DNA of 37,888 nt from Phycisphaerae bacterium (GTDB lineage Bacteria > Planctomycetota > Phycisphaerae > SM23-33), in NCBI GenBank assembly GCA_021108335.1, contig JAIORC010000230.1, positions 1 through 37,888 on the forward strand, read 5' to 3'. Both the position numbers and the translations under genes were made by a program. The stretch's first letter is position 1, and each line of letters opens with the position of its first letter. Of this stretch, positions 23,278-34,855 are shown in pieces. Below the pieces are notes generated by a model. It worked only from the letters and a program-made list of their open reading frames with translations, searched no databases and was not told the origin of the DNA.

Positions 23278-24747
23278 TCATTTTTTAGCATTACCCACCA
23301 CACCGGCAAACTTCTGCCGCTGGGCCAAGGTCGCCCCTGCCGATGCCGGCAAACGATTGAACCACCACCACAGCGCAAGCCCGCCCAACACCATAAACGG
23401 CGCAGTAAGCTGATTATGTGTCGGATCGCCAGCCAGCAAATTCAACGGATTTTCGTGCCGGATCGACTCCAGCATGAATCGCGTTATAGGATACATTATC
23501 AGCATCAGGGCGAAAACCTGCCCCTCACGCCGCCGGTACCGATAAAACAGCATCAGCAACACCGCCAGAAGAAATCCATTGAAAATTCCCAACGGCTGGG
23601 CCGGCCGAAGCGCGTTGCTCCACTGATTGCCAAGCAGCGCGTAAAGATCTTCCTGCAAGTACGCATTGGCCGCCTTCCGCTCCTGCCCAAGCAACCGGCC
23701 ATCCTTGTTCCGGTCGAACTGCCCGAGCAGCTCGTCGGCCCGCCTCTGGAAGTACTCCCGGAATTCCGCGAAACTCAACAACCCGTCCGCCGCTGCGGAG
23801 CTGTAATAATCCTGCATAACGACGGGCCGATCAAACCAGATCGCCTCGTCCCACATCTCGCTACCGCGGAGAAGCCCGTCCCCCGCCGCCAAGGCCTCCT
23901 GCCATTCCGCCTTGCTCAACACCCTGTCACGCCCAGCGGCGACGTTGAATAATTTTTCCAACTCAGCCTTGTCGGCAAACATCGCCGCCAACTGATCGTT
24001 GTGGAGTTGCCCGTGCAACTGCGAAACGGGAAGCACCGCCTGGCGGTTAACCACACGGCGGCCGCCTTCATTCTTGCGATATGTCGAATTTTCTCCCAAT
24101 TCCCGCGTTTGCGTAATATACGCATTCAACAGCCGGGCGTCGGGCGTTACCCGGCCGGCCCAATATTGCTCGGAATACGTCGGGCAAAGCGTCTGCCCGT
24201 CGGAATATGGATTCTCGCCCCCGCCGACCTTCAGCAACGGACGGGATATCATGGGAAATTTTATGCTCATCGCCCACGATTCCTCGCAAGGCCCGCCCCA
24301 GCAACAACCGTTGAGCGTACAGCCCATACGCCCGAACGCCAGGCCGATCATCAGGCTCGGGGCTACGATGTCGATATACCGCCGTATCGGCATGCGCTTG
24401 ATTCTCATGTAGGCCAACACCGTAATCGTCCCGCCCAGCAGGCCTCCGAAATAAATCAGCCCGCCGGAAGTAACGTTGAAAATCTCCCCTAAACCGCCCG
24501 CGCTGAAGCTGTCCCAGTTCTTGAACACATAGGCCATCCTCGCCCCGACCACCCCGCCGACAAGCGCCCATATGCCCATCTGGGAAACAAGCTCCGGGCT
24601 TTCGCCGGCCCGCTTCGCCCGCCACTGGGCCAGCAGAATGCCCGCCAGGAACCCGCAGACCAGCATCAACCCATAACCGAAAATGCGCAGCGGAATCTCT
24701 CCGCCGAAGATATGCACCGTACCTAAATCTATAATTATCTGTCGCAT
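23278..24747 (-). CDS. lgt: Prolipoprotein diacylglyceryl transferase with EF-hand insertion
   Basis: Inner-membrane enzyme that transfers diacylglycerol from phosphatidylglycerol to the lipobox cysteine of prolipoproteins. The Lgt core is clear: RIFGYGLMLVCGF, GGVVGARMAYV, GGLIYFGGLLGG, the signature GRMGCTLNGCCWG (139-151), and after the insert RPAQPLGIFNG and RFMLESIRHEN. It has 489 aa against about 260-300 usually; the excess is an insert at about 165-375. That insert carries three EF-hand-like loops: A270-E281 and S317-E328 are degenerate, and D345-E356 (DRNKDGRLLGQE) is canonical. The insert falls between the signature and the final helices, which are normally close in sequence. Position 100 is Phe where E. 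coli has an essential His. It lies 19 nt after panD. Confidence 0.93.
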   Translation of the reverse strand: MRQIIIDLGTVHIFGGEIPLRIFGYGLMLVCGFLAGILLAQWRAKRAGESPELVSQMGIWALVGGVVGARMAYVFKNWDSFSAGGLGEIFNVTSGGLIYFGGLLGGTITVLAYMRIKRMPIRRYIDIVAPSLMIGLAFGRMGCTLNGCCWGGPCEESWAMSIKFPMISRPLLKVGGGENPYSDGQTLCPTYSEQYWAGRVTPDARLLNAYITQTRELGENSTYRKNEGGRRVVNRQAVLPVSQLHGQLHNDQLAAMFADKAELEKLFNVAAGRDRVLSKAEWQEALAAGDGLLRGSEMWDEAIWFDRPVVMQDYYSSAAADGLLSFAEFREYFQRRADELLGQFDRNKDGRLLGQERKAANAYLQEDLYALLGNQWSNALRPAQPLGIFNGFLLAVLLMLFYRYRRREGQVFALMLIMYPITRFMLESIRHENPLNLLAGDPTHNQLTAPFMVLGGLALWWWFNRLPASAGATLAQRQKFAGVVGNAKK

Positions 24748-28272: not shown

Positions 28273-30909
28273 ATGGATGCTTACACGTTAGACAAAATCG
28301 AGTTCGACGCTGTGCGGCGGATACTCAGCGGTTTTTGCAGTTGCTCGCTGGGCAGGAAGGCTGCGCTTACCATTGCCCCGAGCGCCAAAATCCACGTCGT
28401 CCAGCAATGGGTCGAGCAAACCACCGAAATGGTCGAGGTCGTTCGCGAGACCGGCCTGCCGCCGCTTGGCGGAGCTGGGGATATTTCCGATGCGTTGACG
28501 CGGGCCGTTCCAGGCCATGGCGGCAGCGTGGAGGATTTTTCCGAAATCGCCGATACGCTGACCGCCATCGGTAACTGCCGGGTTTTTTTGCGGAGCCTGC
28601 CCGAACGCCTGAAACTCATACACGCCCTTGCCGGCGGATTGGGCAATTTTTCCGCGGAAGTCGAAGCCATTCGCGCCATCATCGCCCCGGACGGAGAAAT
28701 CCGCGACGACGCGTCGGCTCGCATGGGCGAACTCCGCCGCGAAATCGCCGCCACCACGCAGAAAATTCACGACGTTATCCACAGCTATCTGCGGAACCCG
28801 GAGGTTAAAAAGCTGCTGACCGGCGCTCATGTTACGCTGCACGGCGACCGGTATGTGTTGCCGGTGCGCGTTGACAATCGAGGCCGGCTGCCGGGCGTGG
28901 TGCACCGGGCCAGCAACACCGGCCAAACCGTCTTCGTCGAGCCGAACGCCTCCGTCGAGCTGAACAATCACCTTGTCGATCTGCACGACCATAAGCGGCA
29001 GGAAATCGAAAGACTGCTCAGCGACCTTGGCGTGAAGATCACCGCCCGGCTCAAAAGTATCCGCAATTCGCTGCGGACGCTTGGACAGTTGGACCTGCTC
29101 AGCGCCAAGGCCCAGTACGCCTACCAGTTCGACATGACCGCCCCAACGATTACGCATCGTAAGGGGCTGGAGTTTTTCCGGGCACGCCACCCGCTGCTGG
29201 AAGCCGCCAGCAAGGCCCGCGACAGCCTCGCCGCAAACCCCAACGACCCGCAGACCAAAACCGCCCCCGCCTTCCCGCACGGCAGCAAGACCCACCAGGC
29301 CATTCATTCCGTCGTGCCGATTGACGTTCGGCTGGGCAGCGACTTTGATATCCTGGTAATCACCGGCAGCAACACCGGCGGCAAAACGGTCGCCATGAAA
29401 ACCGTCGCGCTGCTGGTGGCGATGGCCCAGTCGGGAATGCACTTGCCGGTACAGCGCGGCGCGAGGCTGTCCGTATTCGACGACGTGCTGATAGACATCG
29501 GCGACGAGCAGTCGCTCGAGCAATCGCTCAGCACGTTCGGCGGGCACATAGAGCGGCTGAAGTACATTCTGGGGCGGCTGAAGAAAAACGGGCAGAATTG
29601 TCTGGTGCTGCTGGACGAACTCGGCAGCGGCACGGATCCGGACGAGGGCGGCGCGATCGGCCAGGCCTTGCTGGACGAGCTGCAACGCCTGGGCTGCCTG
29701 GCGATGGTGTCTACGCATTTCTCGATACTCAAGGCCTACGCGCTGAACCACGACCGCGTCGATAACGCCTCGGTGGAATTCGACACCCGGACACTTGGGC
29801 CGACGTACCACCTGCGAATCGGCACGCCCGGCGAAAGCCACGCCATCACCGTCGCCGAAAAACTCGGTCTGCCAAAGCGGGTTACCGACGCCGCACGGGG
29901 CCACATGTCCAAACGCGGCAGCCAGTTCCGTAAGGCACTGCGGCTGACCGGGGCTGCACGTCAACAAGCCGAAGCCGCCCGTGCCGACGCCGCGGCTGCC
30001 CAGGTTCAGGCCCAGGGACAGGCCGAGGCCTTCGAAGAAAAAATCGCCGACGTCGCCCGCCTCAAGGAAGACTTCACCACCTGGTTGGCCAGAATAAACG
30101 AACTGAAACCCGGCGACGAGCTGCTCATACCCGCAACCGGCAAGGCGGCCACGCTGGTGCGTCTGGAGTTGCACAAGCAGATCGCCCTTGTCGAACAGCG
30201 CGGCATGCAGCGAGAAATTCCGCTGGCTGAGCTTATGCCGGACGTCGGGCAAACCGCCGTGCGTCAACAGATGACAGCCATCCGGCAAGACGCCTCAGCC
30301 AGGGCTGCCTCCGCAGAAGAGCAACTCGCCGAGGCGCAAAGACTCCGGGACGAAGCAAAGAAAGCGGAAAAACAGCACAAAGACCGCGCAAAACAGTTTG
30401 ACGCATGGCTGGGAAGAATCGCTAGGGTCAAAATCGGCGACGAAATAACCATCAGCCAAAAACCGGGCCGGGGCAAATTGGTCAAGATCGACTTCGCCGG
30501 CCTGCGGGCTACCGTCGAACTAGCCGGCGGCAAAATTATCCAGTTGTCCCTCCAGGATATCTTCCCGCAGATCGGCCCGTTCGCCGCCAGGTCTGATCGC
30601 CACCATGCCGCCGGGAAACCCCGCCGCAAACCCGCCGGTTCCGCGAAATCTCGCGAGGACAAAAACCGCCCCATCCCCCACGGCAAAACCGACGGCAAAG
30701 CCGCTGCAAAAAATCGTCAAGCCGTCCTGGCCACCCCGCCCGGCCAAAAGGTCTACGTCGTGCCGTTCAAAACCGCCGCCACCCTCGTCCGCATAGACAA
30801 AGCCGGCCAAAAAGCCACCGTCCTACGCGGCGCATTCGAAATCCAGATACCACTAAGCGACCTCGAACCGGTGGGATACCCAAAAGCAACAACGGAAAAG
30901 AAAGGCTGA
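28273..30909 (+). CDS. mutS2: MutS2-type ATPase lacking the Smr domain
   Basis: An 878-residue MutS2 homologue; the family acts on branched DNA and on collided ribosomes. MutS core: clamp region, GRYVLPVR-like DRYVLPVRVDNRGRLPG, Walker A GSNTGGKT near 362-369, signature LSTFGGHIERL near 420, and Walker B CLVLLDELGSGTDP near 443. A coiled coil follows. The family normally ends with one KOW-like segment and a nuclease-like Smr domain. Here no Smr motif (DLRG-type) is visible. Instead there are three KOW/SH3-like segments, at about 609-658, 718-768 and 822-871, each ending in a V/IPLxxL-like strand (REIPLAEL, IQLSLQDI, IQIPLSDL). The long minus-strand ORF at 28288-30288 is a shadow. Confidence 0.93.
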   Translation: MDAYTLDKIEFDAVRRILSGFCSCSLGRKAALTIAPSAKIHVVQQWVEQTTEMVEVVRETGLPPLGGAGDISDALTRAVPGHGGSVEDFSEIADTLTAIGNCRVFLRSLPERLKLIHALAGGLGNFSAEVEAIRAIIAPDGEIRDDASARMGELRREIAATTQKIHDVIHSYLRNPEVKKLLTGAHVTLHGDRYVLPVRVDNRGRLPGVVHRASNTGQTVFVEPNASVELNNHLVDLHDHKRQEIERLLSDLGVKITARLKSIRNSLRTLGQLDLLSAKAQYAYQFDMTAPTITHRKGLEFFRARHPLLEAASKARDSLAANPNDPQTKTAPAFPHGSKTHQAIHSVVPIDVRLGSDFDILVITGSNTGGKTVAMKTVALLVAMAQSGMHLPVQRGARLSVFDDVLIDIGDEQSLEQSLSTFGGHIERLKYILGRLKKNGQNCLVLLDELGSGTDPDEGGAIGQALLDELQRLGCLAMVSTHFSILKAYALNHDRVDNASVEFDTRTLGPTYHLRIGTPGESHAITVAEKLGLPKRVTDAARGHMSKRGSQFRKALRLTGAARQQAEAARADAAAAQVQAQGQAEAFEEKIADVARLKEDFTTWLARINELKPGDELLIPATGKAATLVRLELHKQIALVEQRGMQREIPLAELMPDVGQTAVRQQMTAIRQDASARAASAEEQLAEAQRLRDEAKKAEKQHKDRAKQFDAWLGRIARVKIGDEITISQKPGRGKLVKIDFAGLRATVELAGGKIIQLSLQDIFPQIGPFAARSDRHHAAGKPRRKPAGSAKSREDKNRPIPHGKTDGKAAAKNRQAVLATPPGQKVYVVPFKTAATLVRIDKAGQKATVLRGAFEIQIPLSDLEPVGYPKATTEKKG

Positions 30910-30961: not shown

Positions 30962-31147
30962 TCACTTTGCAAAGATCGCTAAGAATCCACATTTTTTGCA
31001 ACGCTTTGCACGCGTTGTTTTGCCACCGAAGTAGGTTGCCCTGGCCAGCAGGCTGGACCCGTTGCTCTTGAACTTGAGGTTAGAGATTCCATACCCATGG
31101 ACATTGCCTGACTCAAAGGTATCATTTCCACACATAGGACATTTCAT
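30962..31147 (-). CDS. Small zinc-ribbon protein
   Basis: A 61-residue protein starting MKCPMCGND with CPMC near the N-terminus and CKKC near the C-terminus, enough for one zinc-ribbon. The middle is basic and Ser/Gly-rich. ATG 31147 is preceded by AGAAAGGAAGG, a strong site, so I rejected the longer tracked start at 31210. It follows the next gene by 16 nt and is probably co-transcribed with it. Similar small two-CxxC proteins are often annotated as domains of unknown function; I cannot assign a role. Confidence 0.75.
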   Translation of the reverse strand: MKCPMCGNDTFESGNVHGYGISNLKFKSNGSSLLARATYFGGKTTRAKRCKKCGFLAIFAK

Positions 31148-31163
31148 GTCCGCCTTCCTTTCT

Positions 31164-31610
31164 CTATATAAAGAATGTGATCTCGTAAGAAAGCAGATCC
31201 TCGGATTCATCTTCCGGAAACGAGACAGTGATCTCCTGGCCGGGAAAATCTCGTTTGAGTTTCGTTTCCCACATATCCTTCAGCTTCCGACCAAGGTGGA
31301 CGACCTGCTCTCGTGTCGGCTCTTCCTTCACATTGGGAAACAGGTCGACAATATGGGTATGGTTCATGACTGCCTGCACGGATGTTTTGTCTCCGTTGGT
31401 CGACTTCATCCAGTCCTGATAATTCCTCTTGTCGATACCAGCAAAGAAAGCGCAACCGTCGTACAGCTCAAACTCCGGCCAGAAAAGCTCAGCATAGGCG
31501 ATTGCGTGCTCGAAATTGCCAACGCACTGCGCCCACGCATCGATATCAATGCCGTCGCCGTTGTTCCACTCGGCGAGTTCAGGAATCAGTTTGTTAATTT
31601 CTTCTGACAT
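31164..31610 (-). CDS. Acidic cytosolic protein, function unknown
   Basis: A 148-residue protein (MSEEINKLIPEL...) rich in Glu, Asp and aromatics (AELFWPEFELYDGCAFF), without signal peptide or membrane segment. I do not recognise the family. The composition and isolation resemble immunity-type or accessory-genome proteins, but that is only an impression. ATG 31610 fits better than the tracked start at 31694, whose extra residues come from repeat DNA. No Shine-Dalgarno is visible; a TATATT lies eight bases before the ATG, so a leaderless transcript is possible. It is paired with the zinc-ribbon gene. Confidence 0.7.
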   Translation of the reverse strand: MSEEINKLIPELAEWNNGDGIDIDAWAQCVGNFEHAIAYAELFWPEFELYDGCAFFAGIDKRNYQDWMKSTNGDKTSVQAVMNHTHIVDLFPNVKEEPTREQVVHLGRKLKDMWETKLKRDFPGQEITVSFPEDESEDLLSYEITFFI

Positions 31611-31711: not shown

Positions 31712-33175
31712 TTACGTTTTGATTGAATCGAGCATAATAACCGCGACGGGGCCGAACAGCAGTACCGGCAGGAATGCGCCCCAGAACTCCGGCAGGCCCA
31801 TATAGCGGCAGATTTGGATGAACCCGAAAAATGCTCCCACCATCAGCAACGCCAGCAACGCCGAGGCTTTGATGTTCCGCTGGCGGGACAGAATAAACGG
31901 CAGCCCCAGCAGCAGCATGATAATGTTGTTGAACGGGTCGGCAAAACGGGTGTATTTGGCCATTCGAACCGCGTGGGAATCCCTGGCCCGTTTAAGCTCC
32001 AGAATTCTCCCCAGTTCCGCACTGCTGGAATAATCCAGCAATTTGCCGGACTGCTCCAATTCCAGTTCACCCTCGGTCAAATCGGTGGCGTGGAACAACG
32101 CCCCTTCCCGGAGTTGCCAATACGCCTTATTCTGCGGCCCCGGCACCCAGAAAGTCTCCCTGGCAACGATAGTCGCCAAAACCCGCTCCTCCTTGCCGCG
32201 GAAGTCGAATTTCGGATTTTTCAGTGTATGGGGAATTACTTTTCCGTCTGCGCCCCTGGTGGCTGCGGTGAATATTTCCGCCTGGATATTCATGTTGAAG
32301 TGCTCATCATATCCGGTAATGTTGTTGGCTTTTTGGACAATGGTATTTGGCTTTATTGTAAAAGCGGGGTCTTTTTCCCGCTCTTTTTTCACGTATTTTT
32401 CGAGCGCAATTTCGTTTATCTGCTGCGGGCCTATAACGGTATAAATTTCCCCGGTTGTCTGGATACTCCTCCAGGCTTCCTGCCCATAGCTCTTGGTGCG
32501 TGAAATTTCCGCCTGCTCCGCCAGCCAGCCGTTTCGTCGTTCGAACTTCGCCGGGCGTGCGCTAACGGCTGTTATATGAGCCAGGTAGCGAAAATCCGGC
32601 GTCCGAAGAATCACCATAGGGTGAATCATCTTGTGAGTAGCGGGATCGAACCACGGCGAATACCACACGGAATTATTGCCGTCATTGATAAACCGTACTT
32701 GGAACCGCTCGGTTTTCTGCGGGTCGTCCGGGTCGATAATCAACTCCGAACGGACGTTGGGGATTATGAATTCCCGGTCGATTACGACCAAACCGCTCAG
32801 TAGTATCGATATGAGAATAATCGGCCAAACCACACGATGCAGACTCATGCCCGACGCGAGCATCGCCGTCAATTCGTTGGTGTGATTCATGCGGGCGACA
32901 CTGAACGCCGCCGCCAGAACGATAATAATGCCCCCCAATTCACTGAAATAAACAAACGTCTGATGGGTATAGTAACTGAGCATACACATCACCATCGCGC
33001 CGAAAGTATAGTCCTTGCCCGTGGCGGGATCGGTCAGTTCCAGCATCTCGGAAAATTCGTCGATGTTGACACCGAGGTCCCCCACCACGCGAATCGCCAT
33101 CAGCGCAATGAAACACATCAGCAACGCCTGTAAAAACGTGCGTAGAATATATCGATCAAGGGTCTTGACTAACAT
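31712..33175 (-). CDS. LptF/LptG (YjgP/YjgQ) family permease, second copy
   Basis: Inner-membrane protein of the lipopolysaccharide export ABC system. The N-terminus (TLDRYILRTFLQALLMCFIALMAIRVV) and the block MNHTNELTAMLASGMSLHRV match the family's coupling-helix region. Three helices lie before and three after a large periplasmic beta-jellyroll (about 150-385); the tail ends LLFGPVAVIMLDSIKT. At 487 aa it is longer than the roughly 360 typical of E. coli proteins, the excess being in the periplasmic part. The ATG has GGGAGA upstream and lies 12 nt after its partner, so both are likely expressed together. I assign it as LptG-like by gene order only. No LptB ATPase is seen here. Confidence 0.88.
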   Translation of the reverse strand: MLVKTLDRYILRTFLQALLMCFIALMAIRVVGDLGVNIDEFSEMLELTDPATGKDYTFGAMVMCMLSYYTHQTFVYFSELGGIIIVLAAAFSVARMNHTNELTAMLASGMSLHRVVWPIILISILLSGLVVIDREFIIPNVRSELIIDPDDPQKTERFQVRFINDGNNSVWYSPWFDPATHKMIHPMVILRTPDFRYLAHITAVSARPAKFERRNGWLAEQAEISRTKSYGQEAWRSIQTTGEIYTVIGPQQINEIALEKYVKKEREKDPAFTIKPNTIVQKANNITGYDEHFNMNIQAEIFTAATRGADGKVIPHTLKNPKFDFRGKEERVLATIVARETFWVPGPQNKAYWQLREGALFHATDLTEGELELEQSGKLLDYSSSAELGRILELKRARDSHAVRMAKYTRFADPFNNIIMLLLGLPFILSRQRNIKASALLALLMVGAFFGFIQICRYMGLPEFWGAFLPVLLFGPVAVIMLDSIKT

Positions 33176-33187
33176 TTCGCCATCTCC

Positions 33188-34855
33188 CTACTTCCTGCTC
33201 AACCGGTAATAAATTACCACATCCGCCACGGCCATCGCGACAATGCCGCCCCAGATCATAAATACCCCTACCATTTCCGACGACTTGGGGTTGGAAATCA
33301 TTTTCTTGCCCATCATAATCAGGATGAGCATTATTACCGCCGGTACCAGCGCCACAACAAAGGCTACCAGCACCTGCCCGCCCCGGAAAACAATCCCCAA
33401 CGCCGCTCCCATCGCCACCAGGAACACGCAACTAATCCCAAAAGCGATTCGCGCGTGCATTTCGGCGATGATTTCCCCCTTAATCTTGCCAGCCCGCGAC
33501 TGGCGCAACTCCGTCACCGAAGCCTGAATGTTGAGGTCTTTGGTAAACCGCTCGGGATTCCTGTAAATTTCCCCCAGCGGGACATCGTCCAGTTCGGCAT
33601 CGTCAGGCAAAACGATCTGTCCCCAGGTCAGACTGCTTTTACGGACGGCTTCCTCGGTATCGCCTTTATGTACCGGAACGCTGACGCGTCCCCGCAATTC
33701 GATGGTAATTCGAGACGGCCTGACAACCTGTGGTTTTGAGATGATCACCGTTGCGGTATCGGCGGAATAAACTTTCACCGTCGAACCTTTGACAACCTGC
33801 AACTGGACGCGACGGAGTCGGCCATCGGGCATTTTTTCGCTGAACAAGGTCGCCTTGGAACCATCTACCGACGCCTTCGGCGCGATTAACACCAACTGCT
33901 CATCGGCCTGGCCTTTACCAACGGCGCTACGATGCAAATCCTTAAATGGTTTATGGGCGTTAATCGTGGCGACAAGCTTTGACAACATCCGGTTACGGCG
34001 TATCTTGCCGGCAATTTTGCCCATACGACGCTGAATTTCTCCATGCTTGGTGATGTCGTCCAAAGTCGCCAGGAGTTTCCCCCAACTGTAGAAGGCGGGC
34101 TTGTCCTCACTGCGACTGGGAATCTCGATATTTTCAAACGGTACTTCCTCGCCCATCTGGACACCGCCTGGAATATTGGAAAAAGGCCCGGCTACATTCT
34201 CCAGAAATACCGAGGCGTAAAAAATGTCTGTCTTGGGATCCCGCACGGTATCCAGGTAGGCCTTTTGGGCGACGACGACTTTAAGTACCGGAATTCTTTG
34301 GCCGGTTTGATTCAGCTTGGTTTCCATCCTGGCGGCAACGACCCCCCATAGCACATTATTTTTTTCGTCCACATACGTGGCATGGATCATGGTTTTGTCG
34401 TCCAGCTTGACGTACGCGTCCTTTTTGATTTTGTGATAGGCGATTCGCTTGATATTTTTCACGACGGCCTGTTCGCCGGCTTTGAGCATGATGGGGGAAA
34501 CGAAATTTGTCAGGACCAGAGAGATAACCATCACAACGGCCCCCAGAGCTACAGCCGGCTGAAGAACCGTAATTATCGATATCCCGCTCGCCCGACAGGC
34601 CAGCATTTCCCGGTCCTGTGCAAAACGCCCGTAAACCATCGACGCGGCGAACAATGCGGCAAAAGGCATGGTGAACGACAGCATCACCGGCAAGGTATAG
34701 ACGAACAGCGCCGCAACCTGACCGGTCGCCAGACCCTCTTTACGCAGTGGCTCGACGATGGCAAACACCGTCATCAGCAACGTAAAGGCTACCAGCGCCA
34801 AGCCGGCTACCCGGAGCAAATCCTTAATAATGTACCAATGTAACGTCCGAAGCAC
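33188..34855 (-). CDS. LptF/LptG (YjgP/YjgQ) family permease, first copy
   Basis: A 555-residue permease paired with the next gene as the probable heterodimeric membrane part of the Lpt exporter. N-terminal helices (LHWYIIKDLLRVAGLALVAFTLLMTVFAIV; FTMPFAALFAASMVYGRFAQDREMLACRASGISI) carry the family coupling motif. A very long periplasmic portion of about 300 residues follows, then three C-terminal helices (IAFGISCVFLVAMGAALGIVF; VLVAFVVALVPAVIMLILIMM). The start is GTG at 34855 with GAGG six bases upstream. The enlarged periplasmic section may fit a different lipid cargo. Confidence 0.87.
   Translation of the reverse strand: MLRTLHWYIIKDLLRVAGLALVAFTLLMTVFAIVEPLRKEGLATGQVAALFVYTLPVMLSFTMPFAALFAASMVYGRFAQDREMLACRASGISIITVLQPAVALGAVVMVISLVLTNFVSPIMLKAGEQAVVKNIKRIAYHKIKKDAYVKLDDKTMIHATYVDEKNNVLWGVVAARMETKLNQTGQRIPVLKVVVAQKAYLDTVRDPKTDIFYASVFLENVAGPFSNIPGGVQMGEEVPFENIEIPSRSEDKPAFYSWGKLLATLDDITKHGEIQRRMGKIAGKIRRNRMLSKLVATINAHKPFKDLHRSAVGKGQADEQLVLIAPKASVDGSKATLFSEKMPDGRLRRVQLQVVKGSTVKVYSADTATVIISKPQVVRPSRITIELRGRVSVPVHKGDTEEAVRKSSLTWGQIVLPDDAELDDVPLGEIYRNPERFTKDLNIQASVTELRQSRAGKIKGEIIAEMHARIAFGISCVFLVAMGAALGIVFRGGQVLVAFVVALVPAVIMLILIMMGKKMISNPKSSEMVGVFMIWGGIVAMAVADVVIYYRLSRK

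Follow-up and report, generated by a model that had tools for sequence, protein, structure and literature searches.

The window analysed here, a 37,888-nucleotide stretch of a Phycisphaerae genome, carries a mutS2 gene whose product keeps its ATPase core intact and has three KOW/SH3 modules but no Smr domain (Table 1). The protein matched the NCBIfam equivalog model TIGR01069 (mutS2) at 618 bits, against a cut-off of 400, and its core/lever/clamp region (about residues 5–310) and ATPase (346–595) were colinear with B. subtilis MutS2 when aligned to 7qv3 by phmmer. Walker A (GSNTGGKT, residues 365–372), Walker B with its catalytic glutamate (LVLLDE, 444–449), the signature region (from residue 418) and the H-loop (STHF, from 480) were all intact, and the alignment with B. 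subtilis MutS2 also extended through the residues near Walker A and B on which splitting depends. Pfam searches found no MutS domain I or II, MutS_V being the only match upstream of the KOW modules, and the 7qv3 alignment begins at residue 5. Placement within MutS2 was further borne out by a KOW module after the helical stalk, identified by a PF20297 match, AF2 barrels and Foldseek. The overall order is ATPase, helix, KOW1, helix, KOW2, basic disordered linker and KOW3, and, because this triple-KOW arrangement was seen again in about 30 independent genomes, an assembly artefact was rejected.

Table 1 Features of the mutS2 gene, in positions of the window and residues of the product.
Feature	Residues	Position	Strand	Evidence
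mutS2, Smr-less triple-KOW form	878 aa	28273..30909	+	Translation; TIGR01069
Core, lever, clamp region	1–340	28273..29292	+	phmmer alignment to 7qv3 residues 5–313
ABC ATPase	346–545	29308..29907	+	Pfam MutS_V (2.9e-31); 7qv3 alignment; motif positions
Helix 1	about 546–608	29908..30096	+	AF2 helix at model residues 18–79
KOW1	611–658	30103..30246	+	AF2 barrel; HMM of single-KOW relatives
Helix 2	about 659–718	30247..30426	+	AF2 helix; hhalign of helix–KOW units
KOW2, most divergent copy	719–768	30427..30576	+	Alignment; profile comparison; AF2; HMM
Disordered basic linker, variable length	about 769–808	30577..30696	+	Mostly pLDDT <50
Short helix and KOW3	809–820 and 821–867	30697..30873	+	AF2 pLDDT 80–90; Foldseek; column counts

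The genes near mutS2 (a sugar epimerase and LptF/LptG) gave no clue to its function. Just downstream, an 82-aa open reading frame on the reverse strand (30962–31210) encodes a zinc-ribbon-like product with two CxxC pairs and a weak DUF6487 match, followed by two LptF/LptG-type permease genes side by side (31712–34855, reverse strand). Also on the reverse strand, positions 23278–24747 encode a prolipoprotein diacylglyceryl transferase (Lgt) that is unusual in length and shows an EF-hand-like match around residue 320.

A sequence-only reading of the locus had described three related C-terminal segments, ending in REIPLAEL (647–654), IQLSLQDI (756–763) and IQIPLSDL (857–864), and these do close three homologous modules. 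Profile comparison by hhalign, from an alignment of 22 sequences, matched module 1 to module 2 at E 3e-12, module 1 to module 3 at E 1e-14 and module 2 to module 3 at E 1e-8. The charged linkers described between them held for one spacer only, the segment leading into module 3 being disordered and basic, whereas modules 1 and 2 are joined by a helix of conserved length. In the AF2 model of residues 530–878 (monomer, 8 sequences, mean pLDDT 71, pTM 0.30, carrying no partner information), the region reads as helix, barrel, helix, barrel, disorder, short helix and barrel, with five strands in each barrel. Helix 1 is much shorter than the canonical MutS2 coiled-coil region, and the match to TIGR01069 is interrupted at profile position 566. 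KOW2 is followed by a conserved LFPQxGPF motif and then by the linker, which in the alignment columns for residues 769–805 spans 21–83 residues in relatives, has a median net charge of +7 and occupies the position where canonical MutS2 continues into Smr. The proposed KOW identity was upheld by Pfam, where the third module matched PF20297, the MutS2 and Smr-associated SH3 family (MSSS/KOW), at 30.3 bits (cut-off 26.8). It was the only module above cut-off in the full protein, and a second MSSS/KOW stretch appeared once the C-terminus was scanned by itself. Modelled separately with AF2, KOW3 scored 80.6.

A tree of the 48-residue modules was too short for firm assignment of their origins, so HMM scores were used instead. 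An HMM of single-KOW relatives from the class scored KOW1 at 61.6, KOW3 at 38.2 and KOW2 at 18.2 bits, and the best non-self match of KOW2 was KOW1, which together indicate that KOW1 is the ancestral MutS2 KOW and KOW2 a copy of the helix–KOW1 unit. Modules 1 and 2 are each preceded by a helix, about 55 residues long, that closes with a W(L/V)-type motif. The two helix–KOW units (553–658 and 664–768) matched one another at E 2e-18, which argues that the duplicated unit was the helix plus the KOW. KOW3 appears to derive from some KOW of the same kind.

The absence of a C-terminal Smr domain, also asserted in the sequence-only reading, was confirmed. No Smr match was found in the protein up to E = 10 in Pfam HMM searches or in the source genome (91% complete), and a separate smr gene was found in 0 of 38 genomes of the order, while control genomes gave matches as expected; a hidden Smr domain and, within this order, simple domain fission were thereby ruled out. 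The canonical C-terminal Smr is thus missing, though the equivalog cut-off does not demand it, and the protein was classed as a Smr-less MutS2 variant. That an Smr domain should have been expected there is another matter, as its lack is normal for planctomycete MutS2. In a sample of 292 genomes of the phylum, MutS2 was above cut-off in 90, and an Smr domain lay in the same frame in three of these. In two more, from family f71, MutS2 was cut by contig ends and Smr lay on another contig, while the other ~85 end after one KOW (about 27 C-termini were read directly), making Smr loss the rule in the phylum. On a tree of the MutS2 core, whose rooting and deep branches are only moderately supported, Smr presence and absence need very few changes, with one change for the Smr-bearing group. 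Smr loss therefore appears to be old and phylum-wide, a single loss being sufficient on this tree, and to have come before the KOW expansion. Separately, 13 of 19 sampled genomes of family f47 (for example G332, G306 and G178) encoded a Smr-less MutS2 together with a stand-alone Smr gene, mostly of ~100–130 aa, a fission-like case unlike the order with the triple KOW. Two genomes of family f35 (G144 and G159) encoded a second MutS2-like gene whose match covers model positions 4–518 only and which may represent a distinct subfamily lacking the C-terminus.

These results also bear on the earlier suggestion that the KOW modules shift the role of the protein away from nucleic-acid cleavage. The case for it is weaker than was stated, as Bacillus MutS2, though Smr-bearing, leaves mRNA uncut when it splits ribosomes, and the loss of Smr probably preceded the KOW expansion.

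The order-specific C-terminal profile was matched by 20 of 20 good genomes of the order, and the whole C-terminus was recovered in one match in 30, with two more split across contigs. Among 397 genomes of the class, 86 outside the order matched helix 1 and KOW1 only, with no KOW2 or KOW3 in an open frame, and in the 292-genome phylum sample KOW1 and KOW2 were both matched by the source genome alone. A class- or phylum-wide trait was ruled out by these searches. On the MutS2 core tree the triple-KOW form was one clade with full support, indicating a single gain confined to one order of Phycisphaerae and complete wherever the gene is unbroken.

A Smr-less MutS2 with two KOW modules was found in family f91 of the same class (L118, L119, L120, L121, L130, L131 and L132). 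In each of the seven proteins read, the distal KOW is carried on a disordered linker rich in proline, and a proline-rich tail is also present. The order profile missed this distal KOW, so other independent double-KOW forms could go unseen. Family f91 grouped with f13, a single-KOW family, and not with the triple-KOW clade, and its distal KOW profile scored best with the f13 KOW (69 bits, versus 31 with KOW3), making a second, independent gain likely. An AU test of f91 and the triple-KOW forms as one clade gave a borderline p of 0.051, which leaves their independence short of proof.

Mean pairwise identity within the order was 0.74 for the ATPase, 0.60 for KOW3, 0.58 for KOW1 and 0.47 for KOW2. 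KOW3 is thus the best conserved and KOW2 the least conserved of the three modules. The weak conservation and divergence of KOW2 would suit a lineage-specific decoration, in which the extra barrels give the dimer stability or a tether, or else bind RNA loosely, and have no special part in replacing Smr, as would the phylum norm of a single-KOW Smr-less MutS2 kept without added modules. However, KOW3 is conserved to the same degree as KOW1, its loop residues G853, F855 and E856 are invariant across 22 members of the order by column counts, it has been lost in no uninterrupted order member, and a similar distal KOW is retained in f91. Decoration of this kind is accordingly regarded as rather unlikely.

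Foldseek placed B. subtilis MutS2 (9a5o and 8r55) as the best solved matches of KOW3, which superposed on the uS10-bound KOW chain 8r55_z with an rmsd of 1.4 Å over 46 residues at 28% identity. The earlier suggestion that the KOW modules could favour ribosome binding gains indirect support from this kinship. In B. subtilis, the MutS2 KOW binds uS10 on collided ribosomes through a loop that includes Q668, I671, L672 and K673 and is equivalent to NusG F165 (PMC10897456). In the computed alignment, the residue facing L672 is the invariant F855 of KOW3 (22/22), while the same position in the hhalign register is a hydrophobic L, M or V in KOW1 (21/22) and mostly glycine in KOW2. KOW1 and KOW3, but not KOW2, are therefore predicted uS10 binders, though the hydrophobic loop residues could alternatively serve barrel packing. 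KOW3 also resembled Spt5, NusG and Tudor domains, and such likenesses raise the question of a transcription-coupled factor, whose KOW array, like those of NusG/Spt5, would connect ribosomes with RNA polymerase or with nascent RNA. Foldseek matches to DSIF KOW6–KOW7 and archaeal Spt5, and a weak match of the KOW3 profile to Spt5/NusG (E 0.03), speak for it; as Bacillus MutS2 outranks NusG/Spt5 for KOW3 and the whole MutS2 splitting core is retained, we consider it very improbable.

Bacillus MutS2 is ATP-driven and splits stalled ribosomes. The B. subtilis protein cannot split ribosomes without ATP hydrolysis and a Walker B mutation abolishes MutS2 activity, whereas Smr deletion impairs it partly, and Smr loss or KOW mutation reduces recruitment and activity (PMC10897456). 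The partial effect of Smr deletion, set against the total effect of the Walker B mutation, indicates that a Smr-less MutS2 can work, and since Smr loss or KOW mutation reduces activity but does not abolish it, compensation by extra KOW contacts is plausible. On the most likely reading, to which we give an even chance, the order form still splits ribosomes, with multivalent KOW recruitment. The MutS2 dimer, as in B. subtilis, would engage stalled or collided ribosomes and split them using ATP, with each dimer recruited by more than one KOW contact, where the canonical protein uses KOW and Smr together. KOW1 would retain the ancestral docking on uS10, KOW3, tethered by the flexible basic linker, would give the second contact given elsewhere by Smr, and KOW2 would be mainly a structural spacer or the binder of a different partner; the C-terminus was probably rebuilt by KOW accretion once Smr was gone. 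We infer the ribosome as target, its splitting and the replacement of Smr by KOW3. The domain content, the lack of Smr, the one origin, the conservation, the ATPase motifs and the kinship of KOW3 are established by the sequence and model work. The conservation of all modules across the order and the distal KOW on a disordered linker in f91 count in favour of multivalent splitting, while the missing RqcH in the order and the many partners bound by KOW/SH3 barrels count against it. More tentatively, and with considerable doubt, the KOW array may replace Smr in collision sensing itself: after Smr loss, MutS2 would have regained two-point disome recognition through a distal KOW on a flexible linker, gained independently at least twice (in the order and in f91), in bacteria lacking RqcH.

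RqcH is the usual downstream partner of MutS2. The two proteins co-occur across bacteria (PMC11633108), and in the phylum sample (n = 292) RqcH, detected by NFACT_N in 102 planctomycete genomes, was associated with MutS2 (both in 69 genomes, MutS2 only in 27, RqcH only in 33, neither in 163; Fisher p 3e-20, not corrected for phylogeny). As the MutS2 with which RqcH co-occurs is nearly always Smr-less, this association argues that Smr-less MutS2 keeps a ribosomal role in the phylum. Within the order, NFACT_R was found in 0 of 38 genomes and NFACT_N was not above cut-off in any of 60 relatives, nor was RqcH found in the Phycisphaerae genomes of the phylum sample; membership of the RQC pathway, judged by RqcH in the same genome, is thus not indicated here. 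SmpB is encoded by 36 of the 38 order genomes. With RqcH absent and MutS2 kept, either the split subunits must meet a different fate in this lineage or MutS2 plays some other role. One such role would be on DNA, the protein being a recombination-controlling MutS2 whose KOW modules bind branched DNA or RNA–DNA hybrids and whose ribosomal role was lost along with RqcH, and MutS2 of some bacteria is indeed described as an anti-recombinase (PMC4739419). This reading seems improbable given that Smr, which is linked to endonuclease activity, is missing, that the nearest structural match of KOW3 is a uS10-bound KOW and that no DNA-binding domain has been gained.

The recognition of collided ribosomes in bacteria has, to our knowledge, so far been described via Smr proteins (SmrB and MutS2), and the order form may show how it proceeds without Smr. 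A phylum with Smr-less MutS2 in which one order has multiplied its KOW modules offers a natural experiment for telling which contacts are important, and in the same order MutS2 is also found apart from RqcH, its usual partner.

A triple-KOW, Smr-less MutS2 has apparently not been described before, judging from a mostly open-access literature. Plant MutS2A likewise lacks a C-terminal Smr, and the portion of its description consulted mentions no multiple-KOW expansion (PMC12292046). The KOW arrays of Spt5/DSIF share tandem KOW barrels with the order form, but have no MutS ATPase and other partners. Closer at hand, the single-KOW MutS2 of other Planctomycetota is likewise Smr-less but stops after KOW1, at about 640–700 aa, and its nearest class families share the shortened helix before that module. 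The double-KOW form of f91 likewise carries a disordered linker and a distal KOW where Smr would otherwise lie, though it lacks helix 2 and KOW2, its linker and tail are proline-rich and it is probably an independent gain. With B. subtilis MutS2 (PDB 7qv3, 8qpp and 8r55), the order form shares the colinear core, lever, clamp and ATPase and, after the helical stalk, a KOW of the same kind. However, the B. subtilis protein has one KOW and a C-terminal Smr, whereas the order form has a shorter stalk, a doubled helix–KOW unit and, where Smr would lie, a third KOW on a linker.
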